Positions 27,177-34,755 of a stretch of 64,000 bases of DNA are shown one piece after another. Below the pieces are notes generated by a model. That model worked only from the letters and a program-made list of their open reading frames with translations. It had not been told where the DNA came from and searched no databases. The translations under genes were made by a program, and so were the position numbers. The stretch covers positions 124,001 through 188,000 of the forward strand of contig JAKARB010000008.1 of the NCBI GenBank assembly GCA_021819435.1, read 5' to 3'. Each line of letters starts with the position of its first letter. Position 1 is the first letter of the stretch. This DNA is from Pseudomonadota bacterium. Lineage in GTDB: Bacteria; Pseudomonadota; Gammaproteobacteria; Burkholderiales; Burkholderiaceae_C.

Positions 27177-28493
27177 ATGACTCAACTCACCCGTGAACAG
27201 CAAATCGCTGCCCTGGAAAAGGACTGGGCCGAAAACCCCCGTTGGAAGCTCGTCAAGCGCGGCTACTCCGCTGCCGACGTGGTTCGCCTGCGTGGCAGCC
27301 TGCAGCCCGAGTACACCCTGGCCAAGCGCGGCGCTGAAAAGCTGTGGGAAAAGGTCAACGGCGGTGCCAAGAAGGGCTACGTGAACGCTTTCGGCGCCAT
27401 CACCGCCGGTCAAGCCATGCAACAGGCCAAGGCTGGCCTGGAAGCCGTGTACCTGTCGGGCTGGCAAGTCGCCGCCGACGGCAACACCTCGGAAACCATG
27501 TACCCCGACCAGTCGCTGTACGCGTACGACTCGGTGCCCACCATGGTTCGCCGCATCAACAACACCTTCAAGCGCGCTGACGAAATCCAATGGTCGCGTG
27601 GTGTGAACCCCGGCGACGAAGGCTTCGTCGACTACTTCCTGCCCATCGTTGCTGACGCTGAAGCCGGTTTCGGCGGCGTGCTGAACGCCTTCGAACTGAT
27701 GAAGAACATGATCGCCGCCGGTGCCGCTGGCGTTCACTTCGAAGACCAGCTGGCCGCCGTGAAGAAGTGCGGTCACATGGGTGGCAAGGTGCTGGTTCCC
27801 ACGCAAGAAGCCATCGAGAAGCTGATCGCTGCTCGTTTCGCTGCTGACGTGATGGGCGTGCCCACCATCGTTCTGGCCCGCACCGACGCTGAAGCCGCCA
27901 ACCTGCTGACCAGCGACCACGACGCCAACGACAAGCCCTTCCTGACCGGCGAACGCACCCAAGAAGGCTTCTACCGCGTCAAGAACGGCCTGGAGCAATC
28001 CATCAGCCGTGGCGTGGCCTACGCTCCGTACGCCGACCTGGTGTGGTGCGAAACCGGCGTGCCTGACATTGGCTTCGCCCGTGAATTCGCCCAAGCCGTG
28101 CACGCCAAGTGCCCGGGCAAGCTGCTGTCGTACAACTGCTCGCCTTCCTTCAACTGGAAGAAGAACCTGGACGACAAGCAGATCGCCAAGTTCCAGCAAG
28201 ACCTGTCGGACCTGGGCTACAAGTACCAGTTCATCACGCTGGCTGGCATCCACATCAACTGGTACAACACGTTCCAGTTCGCCCACGCTTACGCCCGCGG
28301 CGAAGGCATGAAGCACTACACCGAAATGGTGCAAGAGCCCGAATTCGCAGCTCGCGAAAAGGGCTACACCTTCGTGTCGCACCAACAAGAAGTGGGCGCT
28401 GGCTACTTCGACGACGTGACCACTGTGATCCAAGGTGGTTCGTCTTCCGTGAAGGCTCTGTCGGGCTCGACCGAAGAAGAACAGTTCCACTGA
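27177..28493 (+). CDS. aceA: Isocitrate lyase
   Basis: 438 residues. The catalytic signature [15 protein letters not shown] lies near residue 200, preceded by HFEDQLA. Other conserved blocks are [11 protein letters not shown] and SPSFNWKK. It splits isocitrate into succinate and glyoxylate, the first step of the glyoxylate bypass for growth on acetate and fatty acids. GGAG before the ATG. Codon use is unusually uniform compared with neighbours, suggesting high expression. No malate synthase gene lies nearby. Confidence 0.97.
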
Positions 28494-28538
28494 TCCGCGC
28501 GGGCCGCGAGGCCCGTCGCCTGATCGGCTTGAACAGCA

Positions 28539-28562
28539 ACGGCACCTTCGGGTGCCGTTTTT
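28539..28562 (+). terminator. Rho-independent terminator after aceA
   Basis: ACGGCACC (28539-28546), loop TTCG, GGTGCCGT (28551-28558), then TTTT. The UUCG tetraloop makes it strong. Confidence 0.88.
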
Positions 28563-28587: not shown

Positions 28588-28593
28588 TACAAT
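28588..28593 (+). promoter_or_regulatory. Candidate -10 box for the thrS leader transcript
   Basis: TACAAT lies between the aceA terminator and the leader peptide. The -35 region 17 bases upstream (TGGCGA) is weak. Start near 28600 would give a leader RNA of about 205 bases up to the attenuator. Confidence 0.4.
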
Positions 28594-28684
28594 CAAGTAC
28601 CCAAGCGCATCTGCGCAGGCGAATCCAGTTGTGGCGCTCGCCATCTTGCTCAAGCATAAGGAACGTAGAAAGGCACACACGGTT

Positions 28685-28732
28685 ATGACACCGCGAACTT
28701 CGACCCCCACTGTCACCTCGACCGAGGTCTAG
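28685..28732 (+). CDS. Threonine-rich leader peptide of thrS
   Basis: A 15-residue reading frame, MTPRTSTPTVTSTEV, with six Thr codons (ACA, ACT, ACC, ACT, ACC, ACC at 28688, 28697, 28703, 28709, 28715, 28721). AGAAAGG lies 11 bases upstream, a longish but usable spacing. It is followed within 3 bases by a sequence that can pair with the left arm of the terminator at 28778-28805, in front of threonyl-tRNA synthetase. Six Thr in fifteen residues exactly upstream of thrS is hard to explain except as a Thr-tRNA sensor. Inferred role: ribosome stalling on Thr codons when charged tRNA-Thr is scarce. Conservation in relatives has not been tested. Confidence 0.75.
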   Translation: MTPRTSTPTVTSTEV

Positions 28733-28734
28733 TC

Positions 28735-28805
28735 GGCTGGCCGCTGCTTTCGCAAACCTGTTTGCATCACGAACCTGAAAGCGCGGCAGCCACCGCGCTT
28801 TTTTC
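28735..28805 (+). promoter_or_regulatory. Transcription attenuator of thrS (antiterminator and terminator)
   Basis: Terminator: AAGCGCGG (28779-28786), loop CAGCCA, CCGCGCTT (28793-28800), then a T-run to 28804. Candidate antiterminator: GGCTG (28735-28739), CCGC (28741-28744) and GC (28746-28747), with single-base bulges, pair with GCGCGGCAGCC (28781-28791), destroying the terminator stem. A ribosome that reaches the leader stop at 28730-28732 would cover GGCTG and allow termination, while one stalled on Thr codons would leave it free. A small hairpin ACCTC/GAGGT (28715-28728) lies over the last Thr codons. This fills most of the gap between aceA and thrS. Confidence 0.72.
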
Positions 28806-28870
28806 TTGCCCAAACACCGCAAAGACGACGGCCGATCAGGCCGCAGGGCAATCCCACTGAGGACCTTCAC

Positions 28871-30790
28871 ATGATTTCGATCCAACTGCCCGACGGCTCC
28901 AAGCGCGAGTTCCCGCAGCCGGTGACCGTGGCCGAGGTGGCCGCATCCATCGGCGCGGGCCTGGCCAAGGCCGCCTTGGCCGGCCGCGTGGGGCAGGGCG
29001 ATGCCGCCCGCCTGGTCGACACCTCCTACCGCATCGACGCCGACACGCAACTCGCCATCGTCACCGAGAAGGACGCTGACGGCCTGGATGTCATTCGCCA
29101 CTCGACCGCCCACTTGCTGGCCTACGCTGTCAAGGAGCTGTTCCCCGAGGCGCAAGTCACCATCGGCCCGACCATCGAGGACGGCTTCTATTACGACTTC
29201 GCCTACAAGCGCCCCTTCACGCCGGAAGACCTTGCCGCCATCGAGAAGAAGATGGCCGAGCTGGCCAAGAAGGACGAGAAGGTCGAGCGCCGCGTGCTGC
29301 CGCGCGACGAGGCCGTGGCCTACTTCAAGAGCCTGGGCGAGCACTACAAGGCCGAGATCATCGAGAGCATCCCCGCCGATCAGGATGTGTCGCTCTACAG
29401 CGAAGGCGCCTTCACTGACCTGTGCCGCGGCCCGCACGTGCCCAGCACGGGCAAGCTCAAGCACTTCAAGCTGATGAAGGTCGCTGGTGCCTACTGGCGC
29501 GGCGACCATCGCAATGAGCAGTTGCAGCGCGTCTACGGCACGGCCTGGACGAGCAAGGAAGACCTGCAGCTCTACCTGACTCGCCTCGAAGAAGCCGAAA
29601 AGCGCGACCACCGCAAGCTGGGCCGCGAGCTCGACCTGTTCCACATCGACGAGCACGCGCCGGGCGTGGTGTTCTGGCACCCCAAGGGCTGGACGGTGTG
29701 GCAGGCCGTGGAGCAGTACATGCGCCAGGTCTACCGCGACAACGGCTATCAAGAGGTGAAGGGCCCGCAGATCATCGACAAGACGCTGTGGGAGAAGACC
29801 GGGCACTGGGACAAATACCGCGAGAACATGTTCACCACCGAGTCGGAAAAGCGCGACTACGCGCTCAAGCCGATGAACTGTCCTGGCCACATCTTGATCT
29901 TCAATCAGGGCATCAAGAGCTACCGCGACCTGCCCATCCGCTACGGCGAGTTCGGTCAGTGCCACCGCAACGAGCCCACCGGTGGCCTGCACGGCATCAT
30001 GCGCGTGCGCGGCTTCACGCAGGATGACGGCCACGTCTTCTGCACCGAAGACCAGATCCTGCAAGAGTGCGTGGACTTCACGGCGCTGCTGCAAAAGGTC
30101 TACGCCGACTTCGGCTTCACCGACATCATCTACAAGGTGGCCACGCGGCCTGAGAAGCGCATCGGCTCTGACGAGGTGTGGGACAAGGCCGAGAACGCGC
30201 TGATGGAAAGCCTCAAGGCCACCAACAGCGAATTCACCATCGCCCCGGGTGACGGCGCCTTCTATGGCCCCAAGATCGAATACACGCTCAAGGATGCGCT
30301 GGGCCGCCACTGGCAGTGCGGCACGATCCAGGTCGACTTCTCGATGCCCGAGCGCCTGGGCGCTGAGTACGTGACCGAGGCAAGCGACCGCAAGCACCCC
30401 GTGATGCTGCACCGCGCGATCCTTGGCTCGCTCGAGCGCTTCATCGGCATCCTGATTGAGCAGCACGCGGGGGCCTTGCCCGTTTGGCTGTCGCCGGTGC
30501 AGGCCGTGGTGCTCAACATCACCGACGCCCAGGCCGATTACGCGCACGAGGTGGCCGCTGCGCTCACCAAAGCCGGCATCCGCACCAAGCTCGACACCCG
30601 CAACGAGAAGATCACCTACAAGATCCGCGAACACGCGCTCCAGAAGGTGCCTTACTTCATCGTGCTGGGCGACAAGGAAAAGGAAGCGGGCAAGGTGGCC
30701 GTGCGCGCCCGTGGCAACCAGGACCTGGGCGTGATGGACCTGTCGGCGCTGACCTCGCTCATCCAGCAGGCCGTGGCTGAGCGCCGCTGA
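28871..30790 (+). CDS. thrS: Threonyl-tRNA synthetase
   Basis: 639 residues, full length. N-terminal TGS domain (1-61), then the editing domain with the HxxxH pair in [16 protein letters not shown], the class II catalytic core ([10 protein letters not shown] supplies a zinc Cys, [12 protein letters not shown] is motif 2, the final [12 protein letters not shown] is motif 3), and the anticodon-binding C-terminal domain. It charges tRNA-Thr. A Thr-rich leader and attenuator precede it. The usual downstream partner infC is 3.4 kb away because a kinase gene on the opposite strand lies between. Its TGA directly abuts the kinase stop. Confidence 0.98.
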
Positions 30791-33757
30791 TCAGGTGACT
30801 GGCCCTCCGCCGTCTTGATTGGCGGGGGCCAGCCATTGCTTGAGCGTCTGCGTCAGGCGTGTGAGCTCGAAGGGCTTGGGCAGGTGATCGTCCATGCCCG
30901 CGTCGATGCAGCGTTGGCGGTCCTCCAATGAGGCATTGGCCGTCATCGCGATGATGGGCAGGTGCTGGCGGTTTGGCATTTGGCGCAGCAGGCGCGTCGC
31001 TTCCAGGCCATCCATCTCGGGCATCTGCATGTCCATGAGGACGAGGTCGATGCGACGTTCGGCCTGCGCCGCGAACTCGACTGCTTCGCGCCCGTTGGTG
31101 GCGGTGTCCACGGTCAAACCATGCAGTCGCAGCAACTCGCAGGCAAGCTCGCGGTTGAGTTCATTGTCCTCCACCAGCAAGACCCGCAGTCCGCTGGGCA
31201 GCCCTGACAGCGACGGGGCGCACGATGGGGTTGCGGCTGACGCTGCCGATGGAAGTTGCGATGAGGTGCCCGAGGGCGGGGAGGCTGCTTGGCTGCCTTC
31301 TGACGGCGGGTTCTCCGCATCCAGCGGGATCTCCAGCCAGAATGTGGACCCTCGGCCTGGCGTGCTCTCTACCCCGATCTGCCCACCCATGAGTTCGACG
31401 ATGCGTCGGCTGATGGCCAACCCGAGGCCTGTGCCGCCAAAGCGCCGTGTGGTGGAATTGTCTGCCTGCTGAAATGGCTTGAAAAGCCGCGCCAAGGCGT
31501 CCTCATCGATGCCGATACCGGAGTCCTGCACCTCGGCTCGCAAGGTGAGGCGATCCTGGGTGCCCGGCACGGTGAGCAGGCGGATGTCGATGCCGCCCGC
31601 ATCGGTGAACTTCACCGCGTTGCCCCCCAGGTTCAGCAACACCTGGCCCAATCGCATCGGGTCTCCCTGTAGCTGTTCGGGTACATCCGGGCTCACTTGT
31701 ACAGAGAAAGACAACCCTTTGGCCCGGGCTTGGTCTTCGAGCGTCCAGGCGAGCTGGCGCAGCAGCACCCGGGGTTCGAATCGCTGGTGTTCGATCTCCA
31801 GCTTGCCGGCTTCGATCTTCGAGAAATCGAGGATGTCGTTGAGCGTGCCCAACAGCAGTTGGCCTGCGCCTTCGATTTTGTGCAAGTGCTCGCGCACGCG
31901 CCTGGGTTCGAGCACCTCGTCGCGCAGCAGCAGCGAGGTCAGGCCGATGATCGCGTTCAGCGGCGTGCGGATCTCGTGGCTCATGGTGGCCAGGAAGGCG
32001 CTCTTGGCCTCGTTGGCGGCTTCGGCGGCTTCCTTGGCCTGTTTCAGGGGGGTGATGTCTTGAAGCGTGATGAGCAAGCCGTCGTCGCCGAGCAGTTGCC
32101 CGCCGATGAGCACGTCAAGCGTGTGTCCATGGCCCGTGGCGACGTGGTACTCCCTTGGTTGCACCGTGCCCGTGCCGACGCGGGCCTCGTCGACATCCTT
32201 TTGCCATTGCCGGGTGACCCACTCTCGGTAAGTCGCATCAGGGTAGGCGCGCAGGAACCATTGCCCGGGATCGCGGATGTCATCGGCGCTCAGCCCCAGC
32301 AGGCTGATGTAACGCTGGTTGACGGAGACCACCTGGTTTTCTCGCTGGAAGGCCATCGCGACGGGTGCCATCTCGTAGAGCACCTTGAAGAGTTGATTGC
32401 GTTCAGCCTCTGCGTGGGCGAGTCGTGCCTGCGCCGATTCGGCTTCGGCTTGCCGTCGCTGTGTGATGTCACGCGCGAGCATGAGCACGTGCAATTGCTG
32501 ACCGTGAACCTTGCGTGTGCTGGAGAGTTCCAGCCAGCGCAGCCCTGAAGGCAGCGTCAACTGGATCGTGCGCCCCAGGTCGCGGCCTTCCCGGCGCGCG
32601 GCGTCGATCGAGCTCTGGACGATGTCGGCAGCAGGCGAGGGCAGAAAAGCCTGTGGAGGCTGGCCGATGAGTCGTGCGGCATCTGCCTCGAACGCACTGC
32701 CTTCTCGGCCCGCGAAGGCATTGGCGACGCGGCCTTCGGTGTCGAACTCGATCAACCAGTCGGGGATGGCTTCGAGGGTCGCCGCCAAGTCGGCTCGTGC
32801 ACCTTCGGTGTCTTGGTGGGCTTGTCGCAAGGCCTTGAGGGCGCCGTGAAGGTCGGCGGTGCGGGTGCCCACGCGCTGGCGCAATTGGACGTTCCACAGC
32901 AGCAGCAAGCCGGCGCATGTCACCACCGCGCCAGCGCCCCACAAAACTTCGCGTGGCAAGCGCGTCGCGTCGTTGGTCCCCATCCATTTGTCGCGCAGTT
33001 CCTGCTCTTGGGCTGCGGAAATGGTCGCCATTCCTTTTTCCACAAAATTCAGCACATCCGTGCGCCCCTTCTTGACCGCGCGGTGGGCCTGGCCGGTGTA
33101 GAGCACGAAGGACAGCTTGAATTCGGTGTCAGCGCCGAGCTTGTAGAGGTAGAAGCGCGCAGGCCCCTCGTCCATGCAGAACACCTTCACTTCTTGCCGC
33201 TGCGCTGCGCGGATGAGCTGCTCGTAGTTGGGGTAGGTGGCGATGGTGGGGATGCCGGCTTCCTGGAGTTGTTCGACGCAGGCGTCGCCATCCTGGGCGC
33301 CAACGAGGAAACCCTTGAGCGTGGCCGTGTTGTGGATGCCGACGATGTCCCTGTGGCTGTAGATGCCGACGGGCATGTCGGCGTAAGGCCGGGAGAAGTC
33401 GTATTGCGACTCGCGGGAAGTGGTCCGGTAGATCAGGTCGATGACATCGGCCTCTCCGGCTTGCAGTGCACGCCGGGCCTCCGACCATGGCCGCAGGCTG
33501 AATTCGACTGGCACCCCGGTTTGACTCGACCACAGGCGCCAGCGATCGATGAGCAGCCCTTCAGGGCCGCCTTCGCTGTTGCGGTATGTGAATGGGGGGA
33601 AGTTCTCGTCGCTGACGACGCGCAACACCTTCAGTTCGGGTGGCTGGACGGGGGCACGAGACGCGTCCCGTGTCGCAAATGCGTCGGCGGCTGGCAGCAG
33701 GCACAAGGCCTGCGCGCTCAACACGCTCAGCAGGAGCCGGCGCCATTGGCGAAACAT
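30791..33757 (-). CDS. BvgS-like hybrid sensor histidine kinase
   Basis: 988 residues. Signal peptide about 1-27, one periplasmic solute-binding (SBP family 3) domain about 42-262 ([15 protein letters not shown] at its start), TM about 270-290, two PAS-like regions about 320-435 and 455-570, HisKA with [12 protein letters not shown] (His 594), HATPase with GNAVKFTD and [11 protein letters not shown], a Ser/Pro/Ala-rich linker about 815-855, and a receiver domain with LVEDNELNR, Asp 909 and Lys 961. No Hpt domain and no neighbouring regulator, so its output partner is elsewhere. It sits between thrS and infC on the opposite strand, breaking a normally conserved operon. The ligand is probably an amino acid or small organic compound (inference). 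Confidence 0.9.
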
Positions 33758-34206: not shown

Positions 34207-34755
34207 ATCGCTAACTTCTTTGACCGCCGCACGCGCAACGACGAGCGCAAGCACCGGCTGAACCGCGAAATCACTGCACCCGAAGTCCGCCTGAACGGAC
34301 CGGAGAACGAGCCCCTCGGCATCGTCAGCATCCAGGAAGCCCTGCGACTGTCGGCCGAGCACGATGTGGACCTGGTCGAGATCTCCGCCACGGCGGATCC
34401 TCCTGTCTGCCGCCTGATGGACTACGGCAAGTTCAAGTATCAGGAGCAGAAGAAAGCCCACGACGCGAAGCTCAAGCAGAAGGTCATCGAGGTCAAGGAA
34501 GTCAAATTCCGCCCCGGCACCGACGAGGGCGACTACCAGATCAAGCTGCGCAACCTGCGCCGCTTCTTGGAGGATGGCGACAAGGGCAAGGTCACGTTGC
34601 GCTTCCGTGGTCGGGAAATCACCCACCAAGAGCTTGGCATGCGCCTGTTGGAACGTGTGCGTGACGACCTGCAGGATTGCTCCCTGGTCGAAAACATGCC
34701 GAAACTCGAAGGGCGCCAAATGATCATGGTTCTGGGTCCCAAGAAGAAGAAATAA
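34207..34755 (+). CDS. infC: Translation initiation factor IF-3, AUC start codon
   Basis: 182 residues from ATC 34207. The frame is open only from 34183 (after TAA 34180-34182) and has no ATG, GTG or TTG before the conserved N-terminal domain ([14 protein letters not shown]). AAGGAA (34195-34200) lies 6 bases before this ATC. GTG 34366 would remove a third of the protein. infC genes are known for rare start codons (AUU in E. coli), through which IF-3 limits its own synthesis. Conserved blocks: [38 protein letters not shown] and [14 protein letters not shown]. The factor prevents premature subunit joining and checks initiator tRNA. It heads the rpmI-rplT run. Confidence 0.93.

Follow-up and report, generated by a model that had tools for sequence, protein, structure and literature searches.

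What governs the expression of thrS, the gene for threonine-tRNA ligase (ThrRS), in a member of the Burkholderiales is the question raised by a short threonine-rich reading frame, followed by an intrinsic terminator, that precedes this gene in the 64,000-nt stretch of DNA analysed here (the window). In E. coli, ThrRS binds the tRNA-like domains of the thrS operator at the ribosome site, a translational control that involves no leader peptide, and in Gram-positive bacteria thrS is subject to T-box control. Sequence comparison and computed folds suggest that the burkholderial locus is very probably a classic ribosome-mediated transcription attenuator, through which thrS expression would depend on charged threonine tRNA. 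The features of the locus are as follows.

27177-28493, aceA (isocitrate lyase), upstream neighbour of the leader region
28538-28562, aceA terminator, read from the sequence, between aceA and the leader
28588-28593, plus strand, probable thrS promoter -10 element TACAAT, located 97 nt 5' of the leader ATG
28667-28673, plus strand, leader ribosome binding site AGAAAGG, a conserved AGAAAGGC block in most alignment rows
28680-28693, plus strand, possible small hairpin CGGU-UAUGAC-ACCG at the leader start codon, from RNAalifold, without compensatory changes
28685-28732, plus strand, leader peptide reading frame MTPRTSTPTVTSTEV, indicated by an uninterrupted frame that, in relatives, is enriched in Thr and has in-frame indels
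28691-28698, plus strand, segment 1 (CCGCGAAC, codons 3-5), which is proposed to pair with segment 2 on ribosome-free RNA; the pairing exceeds that of shuffles, with no covariation beyond an invariant core
28735-28751, plus strand, segment 2, 5' strand of the antiterminator, from pairing and folding calculations
28777-28791, plus strand, segment 3, 3' strand of the antiterminator, comprising the terminator's left arm and some of its loop, from pairing and folding
28778-28804, plus strand, intrinsic terminator (stem 28778-28786/28793-28801, 6-nt loop, T run 28799-28804)
28871-30790, plus strand, thrS (threonine-tRNA ligase), the gene presumed to be controlled

The leader frame could be read directly and is as originally predicted: it opens with ATG at 28685-28687, has 15 codons (MTPRTSTPTVTSTEV), six of them for Thr (ACA ACT ACC ACT ACC ACC), and ends with TAG at 28730-28732. 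The gene placed at 28871 is indeed thrS, with a TIGR00418 match (E 2.5e-219) over 28871-30790. The terminator, originally put at 28778-28805, does have its hairpin and T run, the latter ending at 28804, not 28805; a simple terminator scanner reported 0 terminators, and this one is plain by eye and on folding. The claimed pairing of GGCUGgCCGCuGC (28735-28747) with GCGCGGCAGCC (28781-28791) is present with its 11 bp and two single-base bulges, and is lengthened to 15 bp by four more pairs (UUUC 28748-28751 with GAAA 28777-28780), giving an antiterminator duplex of -23.8 kcal/mol vs -15.4 kcal/mol for the terminator hairpin. A simple promoter scan found no promoter. Elements of the form TA[CTA]AAT lie 20-130 nt 5' of the leader at 27 of 29 same-genus and 58 of 95 family loci (2.3 expected from shuffles). 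Hardly any variation is seen in the GGTT before the leader ATG or in the ACACCG after it, and the two could pair as the small hairpin at 28680-28693, the conservation of these nucleotides being partly due to the choice of search motif.

Of 37 genomes in the genus, one being that of the window, 33 have thrS (three in pieces), and no match was found in the other four (G005, G009, G015, G030). The leader start is present at 32 of the 33 loci (L001-L030, L055-L057). At L027 it is gone and the hairpin is kept, and this locus was omitted from the genus alignment; at L028 the leader stops early, after MTP. The typical genus leader reads MTPRTSTxTxTSTEV and, L028 excepted, carries 4 to 9 Thr. Its length changes only by whole codons, as would be the case if the frame is translated. 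All 32 aligned loci, that of the window among them, have the intrinsic terminator; GGCTGGCCGCTGCTTTCG is unchanged in 22 and GAAAGCGCGG..CCGCGCTTTT in 26 of the 32.

For the family we used 120 genomes from 119 genera, drawn evenly from the GTDB family of the window. All have thrS; three (G085, G109, G139) were dropped as the N-terminus of ThrS was missing, and the DNA upstream of thrS was used for 117 genomes of 116 genera. An MTPRT leader precedes thrS in 97 of the 117 (95 by motif, plus L180 and L188), and variants occur at L195 (MAPRT), L290 (MTTRT) and possibly L278 (MQIFRTS). In 17 a recognisable leader is missing: ten of these keep a GCGG..CCGC hairpin (L193, L217, L240, L242, L247, L263, L266, L270, L283, L289; the call at L283 is from 205 nt of upstream sequence only) and seven do not, one of the seven, L228, having an imperfect hairpin. 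By eye, the ten leaderless hairpins and a T run lie shortly 5' of thrS, the T run being short at several of these loci, and most have a -10-like element upstream.

Because the leader search motif specifies most of codons 2-5, MTPRT is in part dictated by the search; codons 6 onward are free. Past codon 5, Thr makes up 222 of 880 codons (25.2%) in frame in the 95 family leaders, compared with 7.6% (sd 0.8) in shuffles, and only 10 of 777 and 20 of 776 codons in the two shifted frames of the same leaders. A short reading frame with at least six Thr in its last 18 codons was found in 20 of the 117 family regions upstream of thrS (a count in which the L180 and L188 regions were misplaced and L283 had 205 nt only). 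Mononucleotide shuffling yielded such a frame once in 1170 sequences, and none of the 117 reverse complements had one.

Thus far the comparison bears out the expectation that a Thr-rich leader, a terminator and an antiterminator would recur before thrS in Burkholderiales. The terminator stem is compensated, with four pairs changed on both sides among 65 aligned sequences (the window and 64 of 80 drawn relatives, from draws of 45 and 35, the others omitted for size only). The expected covariation of the antiterminator proved weak, and that of the ribosome-free 1:2 pairing is absent. With segment 2 shuffled at the 95 loci, the 2:3 pairing weakens from -16.81 to -14.01 (sd 0.32) kcal/mol and the 1:2 pairing from -13.96 to -11.80 (sd 0.30) kcal/mol. 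Swapping the 2:3 partners among genomes gave slightly weaker pairing, 68 of 5000 permutations equalling the cognate set; for 1:2, the swaps at the same 95 loci had no effect (2359 of 5000). For the pairing calculations, the search was confined to sequence 3' of the leader stop; the terminator picks of the family leader count lie upstream of the leader at 10 of the 95 loci, and at the other 85 the T run is 16-97 nt from thrS. By eye, segment 1 (CCGCGAAC) complements in many relatives a stretch just after the stop codon (GTTCGCG, or TAGTC plus GCG) that also complements the terminator left arm GCGCGGAC.

We then folded the RNA with a ribosome placed on the leader, removing the RNA under it (15 nt past the first base of the P-site codon) and taking the equilibrium probability of the terminator core stem. 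In the window, this probability was 0.00-0.03 whichever Thr codon the ribosome occupied, and it rose to 1.00 at the stop codon; the stop state needs a footprint of at least 14 nt (0.12 with 12 nt). The two structures are mutually exclusive in the computed folds, with the right geometry. On ribosome-free RNA the terminator reached 0.98 when the RNA began at 28655 and 0.04 when it began at 28600, and the 1:2 hairpin was rejected as a sure ribosome-free state, as the outcome hinges on the assumed RNA start. Across the genus (n = 32), the probability was 0.51 as a mean over Thr codons, 0.99 at the stop and 0.96 without ribosome; the stop-minus-Thr difference of 0.477 fell to 0.011 (sd 0.014) in 15 shuffled sets, exceeded 0.1 in 24 of the 32 and was reversed in none.

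The switch is less frequent in the family, where 86 of the 95 leaders were folded (the other nine were unmatched by the terminator pattern). The probabilities were 0.84 on Thr codons, 0.97 at the stop and 0.99 ribosome-free, with a difference of 0.127 vs 0.002 (sd 0.016) in eight shuffled sets; the difference exceeded 0.1 in the predicted direction in 21 of the 86 and was reversed in two. In most family members the terminator is the preferred equilibrium structure in all the states modelled, so a switch there would need to be kinetic. An earlier family run, comparing the last Thr codon with the stop, found the terminator likelier at the stop in 26 of 94 and less likely in two; only the core stem was used later because a stem running into the T tract was judged to over-count A-U pairs. 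The spacing, originally said to fit ribosome-mediated attenuation, does so in that the folds switch as predicted in the window and most of the genus, and less often in the family.

The following course of events is proposed. RNA polymerase would start about 85-90 nt 5' of the leader ATG, and a ribosome would begin the leader. With Thr-tRNA scarce, the ribosome would stall at a Thr codon (between codons 2 and 13), leaving 28735-28751 free to pair with 28777-28791; no terminator would form and thrS would be transcribed. With Thr-tRNA plentiful, the ribosome would reach the TAG at 28730-28732 and cover the start of segment 2, the terminator at 28778-28804 would form and transcription would end. 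In this scheme we infer the promoter, the direction of the response, the translation of the leader and in vivo termination at the hairpin.

The same switch might answer to another signal, either generally slow translation or the rare codons ACA (codon 2) and CGA (codon 4), a reading that overlaps with threonine-dependent attenuation and that we consider unlikely. In the 95 family leaders, codon 2 is ACA in 94, codon 4 is CGA in 90 and codon 5 is ACT in 83, figures partly preset by the motif; aceA and thrS of the window use ACA for 0 of 57 Thr codons and CGA for 0 of 58 Arg codons. Only two Thr codons are present in 8 of the 95 family leaders and in 7 of 28 leaders from the scan of the order described below. 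In the folding model any stalled codon gives antitermination: stalling on non-Thr sense codons equals stalling on Thr codons (0.51 vs 0.49 in 31 genus leaders), so that specificity for threonine would come from codon content alone. Against such a general signal stand the strong enrichment of Thr at free positions (25% vs 8%) and the identity of the controlled gene, which encodes ThrRS itself. These rare codons fit with RNA pairing, slow decoding or both; they also form segment 1, and RNA pairing may therefore explain them.

Beyond the family, the 25-base motif GGTTATGACACCGCGAACNNNNACC occurs at no fewer than 118 loci in reference genomes. Among the matches listed, thrS lies downstream in 114 of 118, and the other four sequences end within 212 nt; 80 titles among these matches all name Burkholderiales genera or families, bar one uncultured bacterium and one Betaproteobacteria bacterium. 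Genera among the matches listed include Burkholderia, Paraburkholderia, Cupriavidus, Massilia, Janthinobacterium, Herbaspirillum, Comamonas, Polaromonas and Roseateles. Thr or Arg-Thr leaders were recognised by eye in at least eight of 24 genomes from other families of the order (for example MQRTSTKTITYLG, MQLNRTTTTS, MTLRTCTKH and MGFRTCMPDSMHRF), and in four of those eight (L032, L037, L040, L043) a tRNA-Val gene is directly 5'.

A covariance model matched (E <= 0.01) in 104 of 200 genomes of the order and 51 of 232 of the class, most matches being weak and resembling plain terminators. Among the best 30 order loci, which include the window and five other family members, 29 precede thrS; L319 was rejected as an attenuator and is a gene-end terminator instead. 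Leaders could be read in 28 of the 29 (for example MSFRTTTTGTLYLG and MAVRTTTTHP), the element of the remaining one, L308, being further upstream than the sequence examined. Order matches ranked after the best 30 score no more than 37.5 bits; judged by coordinates, at least the ones in G038, G040, G041 and G049 are just before thrS. The 17 class loci outside the family score at most 27.7 bits and none of them contains thrS, so we do not claim the element outside Burkholderiales.

ARAGORN found tRNA-Val (GAC) directly 5' of the leader or hairpin at 21 of the 23 other-family loci given to it (L032, L037-L040, L043-L045, L297, L300, L302, L304, L306, L307, L309, L314-L318, L320). Since the tRNA adjoins the leader or hairpin, the attenuator may sit within a tRNA-thrS transcript.

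These tRNA-Val genes in several other families, like the hairpins that stand without a leader in 10 of the 117 family genomes, would suit an ordinary terminator of an upstream gene or tRNA, with a Thr-rich frame that is fortuitous or unrelated and with thrS expressed by read-through or from another promoter. We regard this as improbable, as aceA has its own terminator (28538-28562), a promoter-like -10 element lies between that terminator and the leader, and leader, segment 2 and terminator occur together, with a fold difference that vanishes on shuffling. Autoregulation by ThrRS, in which the protein would bind its own leader RNA much as it controls thrS translation in E. coli, has the same target gene in its favour, as well as the conservation of nucleotides near the leader start beyond what the peptide needs (in part a consequence of motif choice). 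It leaves the Thr codons and the antiterminator unexplained, and with the T run 16-97 nt from thrS at 85 of 95 loci there is little room for an operator at the start of the gene; we think it very improbable. A T-box riboswitch, which controls thrS in Gram-positive bacteria, is hardly credible here, the Rfam scan having given no match to a T-box model in the region.

Returning to threonine-dependent attenuation, its history may be sketched tentatively, in a form that we ourselves find rather doubtful. An attenuator common to the whole order would have an ancient core, CGAAC (Arg-Thr), serving at once as rare-codon coding sequence, stall site and segment 1; it would have arisen in tRNA-Val/thrS transcripts and later acquired its own promoter, and some genera would have lost the leader and kept the hairpin. 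If the leader was indeed lost in this way, the retained hairpin would have a second, leader-independent role in thrS expression.

The principle of such control is known. In the trp attenuator, segment 2 begins just past the leader stop codon, and Rfam includes a thr operon leader family. At gathering score, Rfam reported only a tRNA in the window and no attenuator family at the leader region; at a relaxed threshold, the only match in that region was L20_leader (E 3), far below its cut-off. The trp and his attenuators comprise a leader reading frame with cognate codons, alternative pairings I:II, II:III and III:IV, and a terminator before the gene (PMC1183508), and among tRNA ligase operons pheST is named as a classical case of attenuation (PMC1262725). 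Going by the available parts of these papers, the Burkholderiales leader resembles trp, his and pheST in its cognate-codon frame, predicted alternative pairings and terminator before the gene; it differs from them in that it would control thrS and in that the window has no match to an Rfam leader family.

In Streptomyces lividans TK24, thrL has been proposed as a threonine-dependent leader peptide before thrS (PMC8079986); the available part of that paper gives the peptide as MKRVRPFLETTPGFVPAR, with two Thr and a leaderless transcript, and describes termination as unclear, and by eye the peptide has no resemblance to MTPRT. Classic attenuators of Streptomyces trpS and leuS were predicted by comparison (PMC1262725, in the part available), and these too belong to tRNA ligases, but for other amino acids and in another phylum. 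The accessible portion of a further paper deals with hisS leaders and refers to E. coli ThrRS, and contains nothing on Burkholderiales thrS attenuation (PMC2965389). Our literature search, mostly at title and abstract level, as for PMC12452182, which mentions thrS and Burkholderia, and with two likely earlier surveys outside it, found no thrS attenuator reported for Burkholderiales or other Betaproteobacteria. Lopatovskaya et al. (2010) reportedly treated attenuation of amino acid and aminoacyl-tRNA operons and could have predicted a Burkholderiales thrS attenuator, as could Vitreschak et al. (2004). As far as we have checked, the predicted thrS attenuator of Burkholderiales appears to be new and widely conserved.

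It would provide a concrete, testable control of an essential tRNA ligase in an order rich in species from soil, plants and the laboratory. It would also be a further route for feedback of threonine supply on thrS, beside the T-box and the E. coli operator, with which the burkholderial leader shares feedback on ThrRS supply. If the attenuator operates in this way, ThrRS inhibitors should increase thrS transcription via the leader, and the leader could be used as a reporter of threonine charging. The data further suggest a well-populated Rfam family that would be new, and an evolutionary progression from tRNA-linked through free-standing to leaderless forms, the order of events being presumed.

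A few other observations concern the surroundings of thrS. Between the T run and the gene there is an inverted repeat at 28806-28851 (TTGCCC 28806-28811, GGGCAA 28846-28851), which encloses GGCC at 28830-28833 and at 28839-28842 and does not cover the thrS ribosome site; a few close relatives have similar repeats, judged by eye. The genes thrS and infC are neighbours in many bacteria; in the window a minus-strand gene (30791-33757), hybrid histidine kinase-like by eye, is found between them. Non-ATG starts are known for infC. The infC gene of the window (IF-3, 34207-34755) has the unusual apparent start codon ATC (ATC GCT AAC TTC), preceded by AAGGAAA, and the ORF finder places its start at an internal GTG at 34366.
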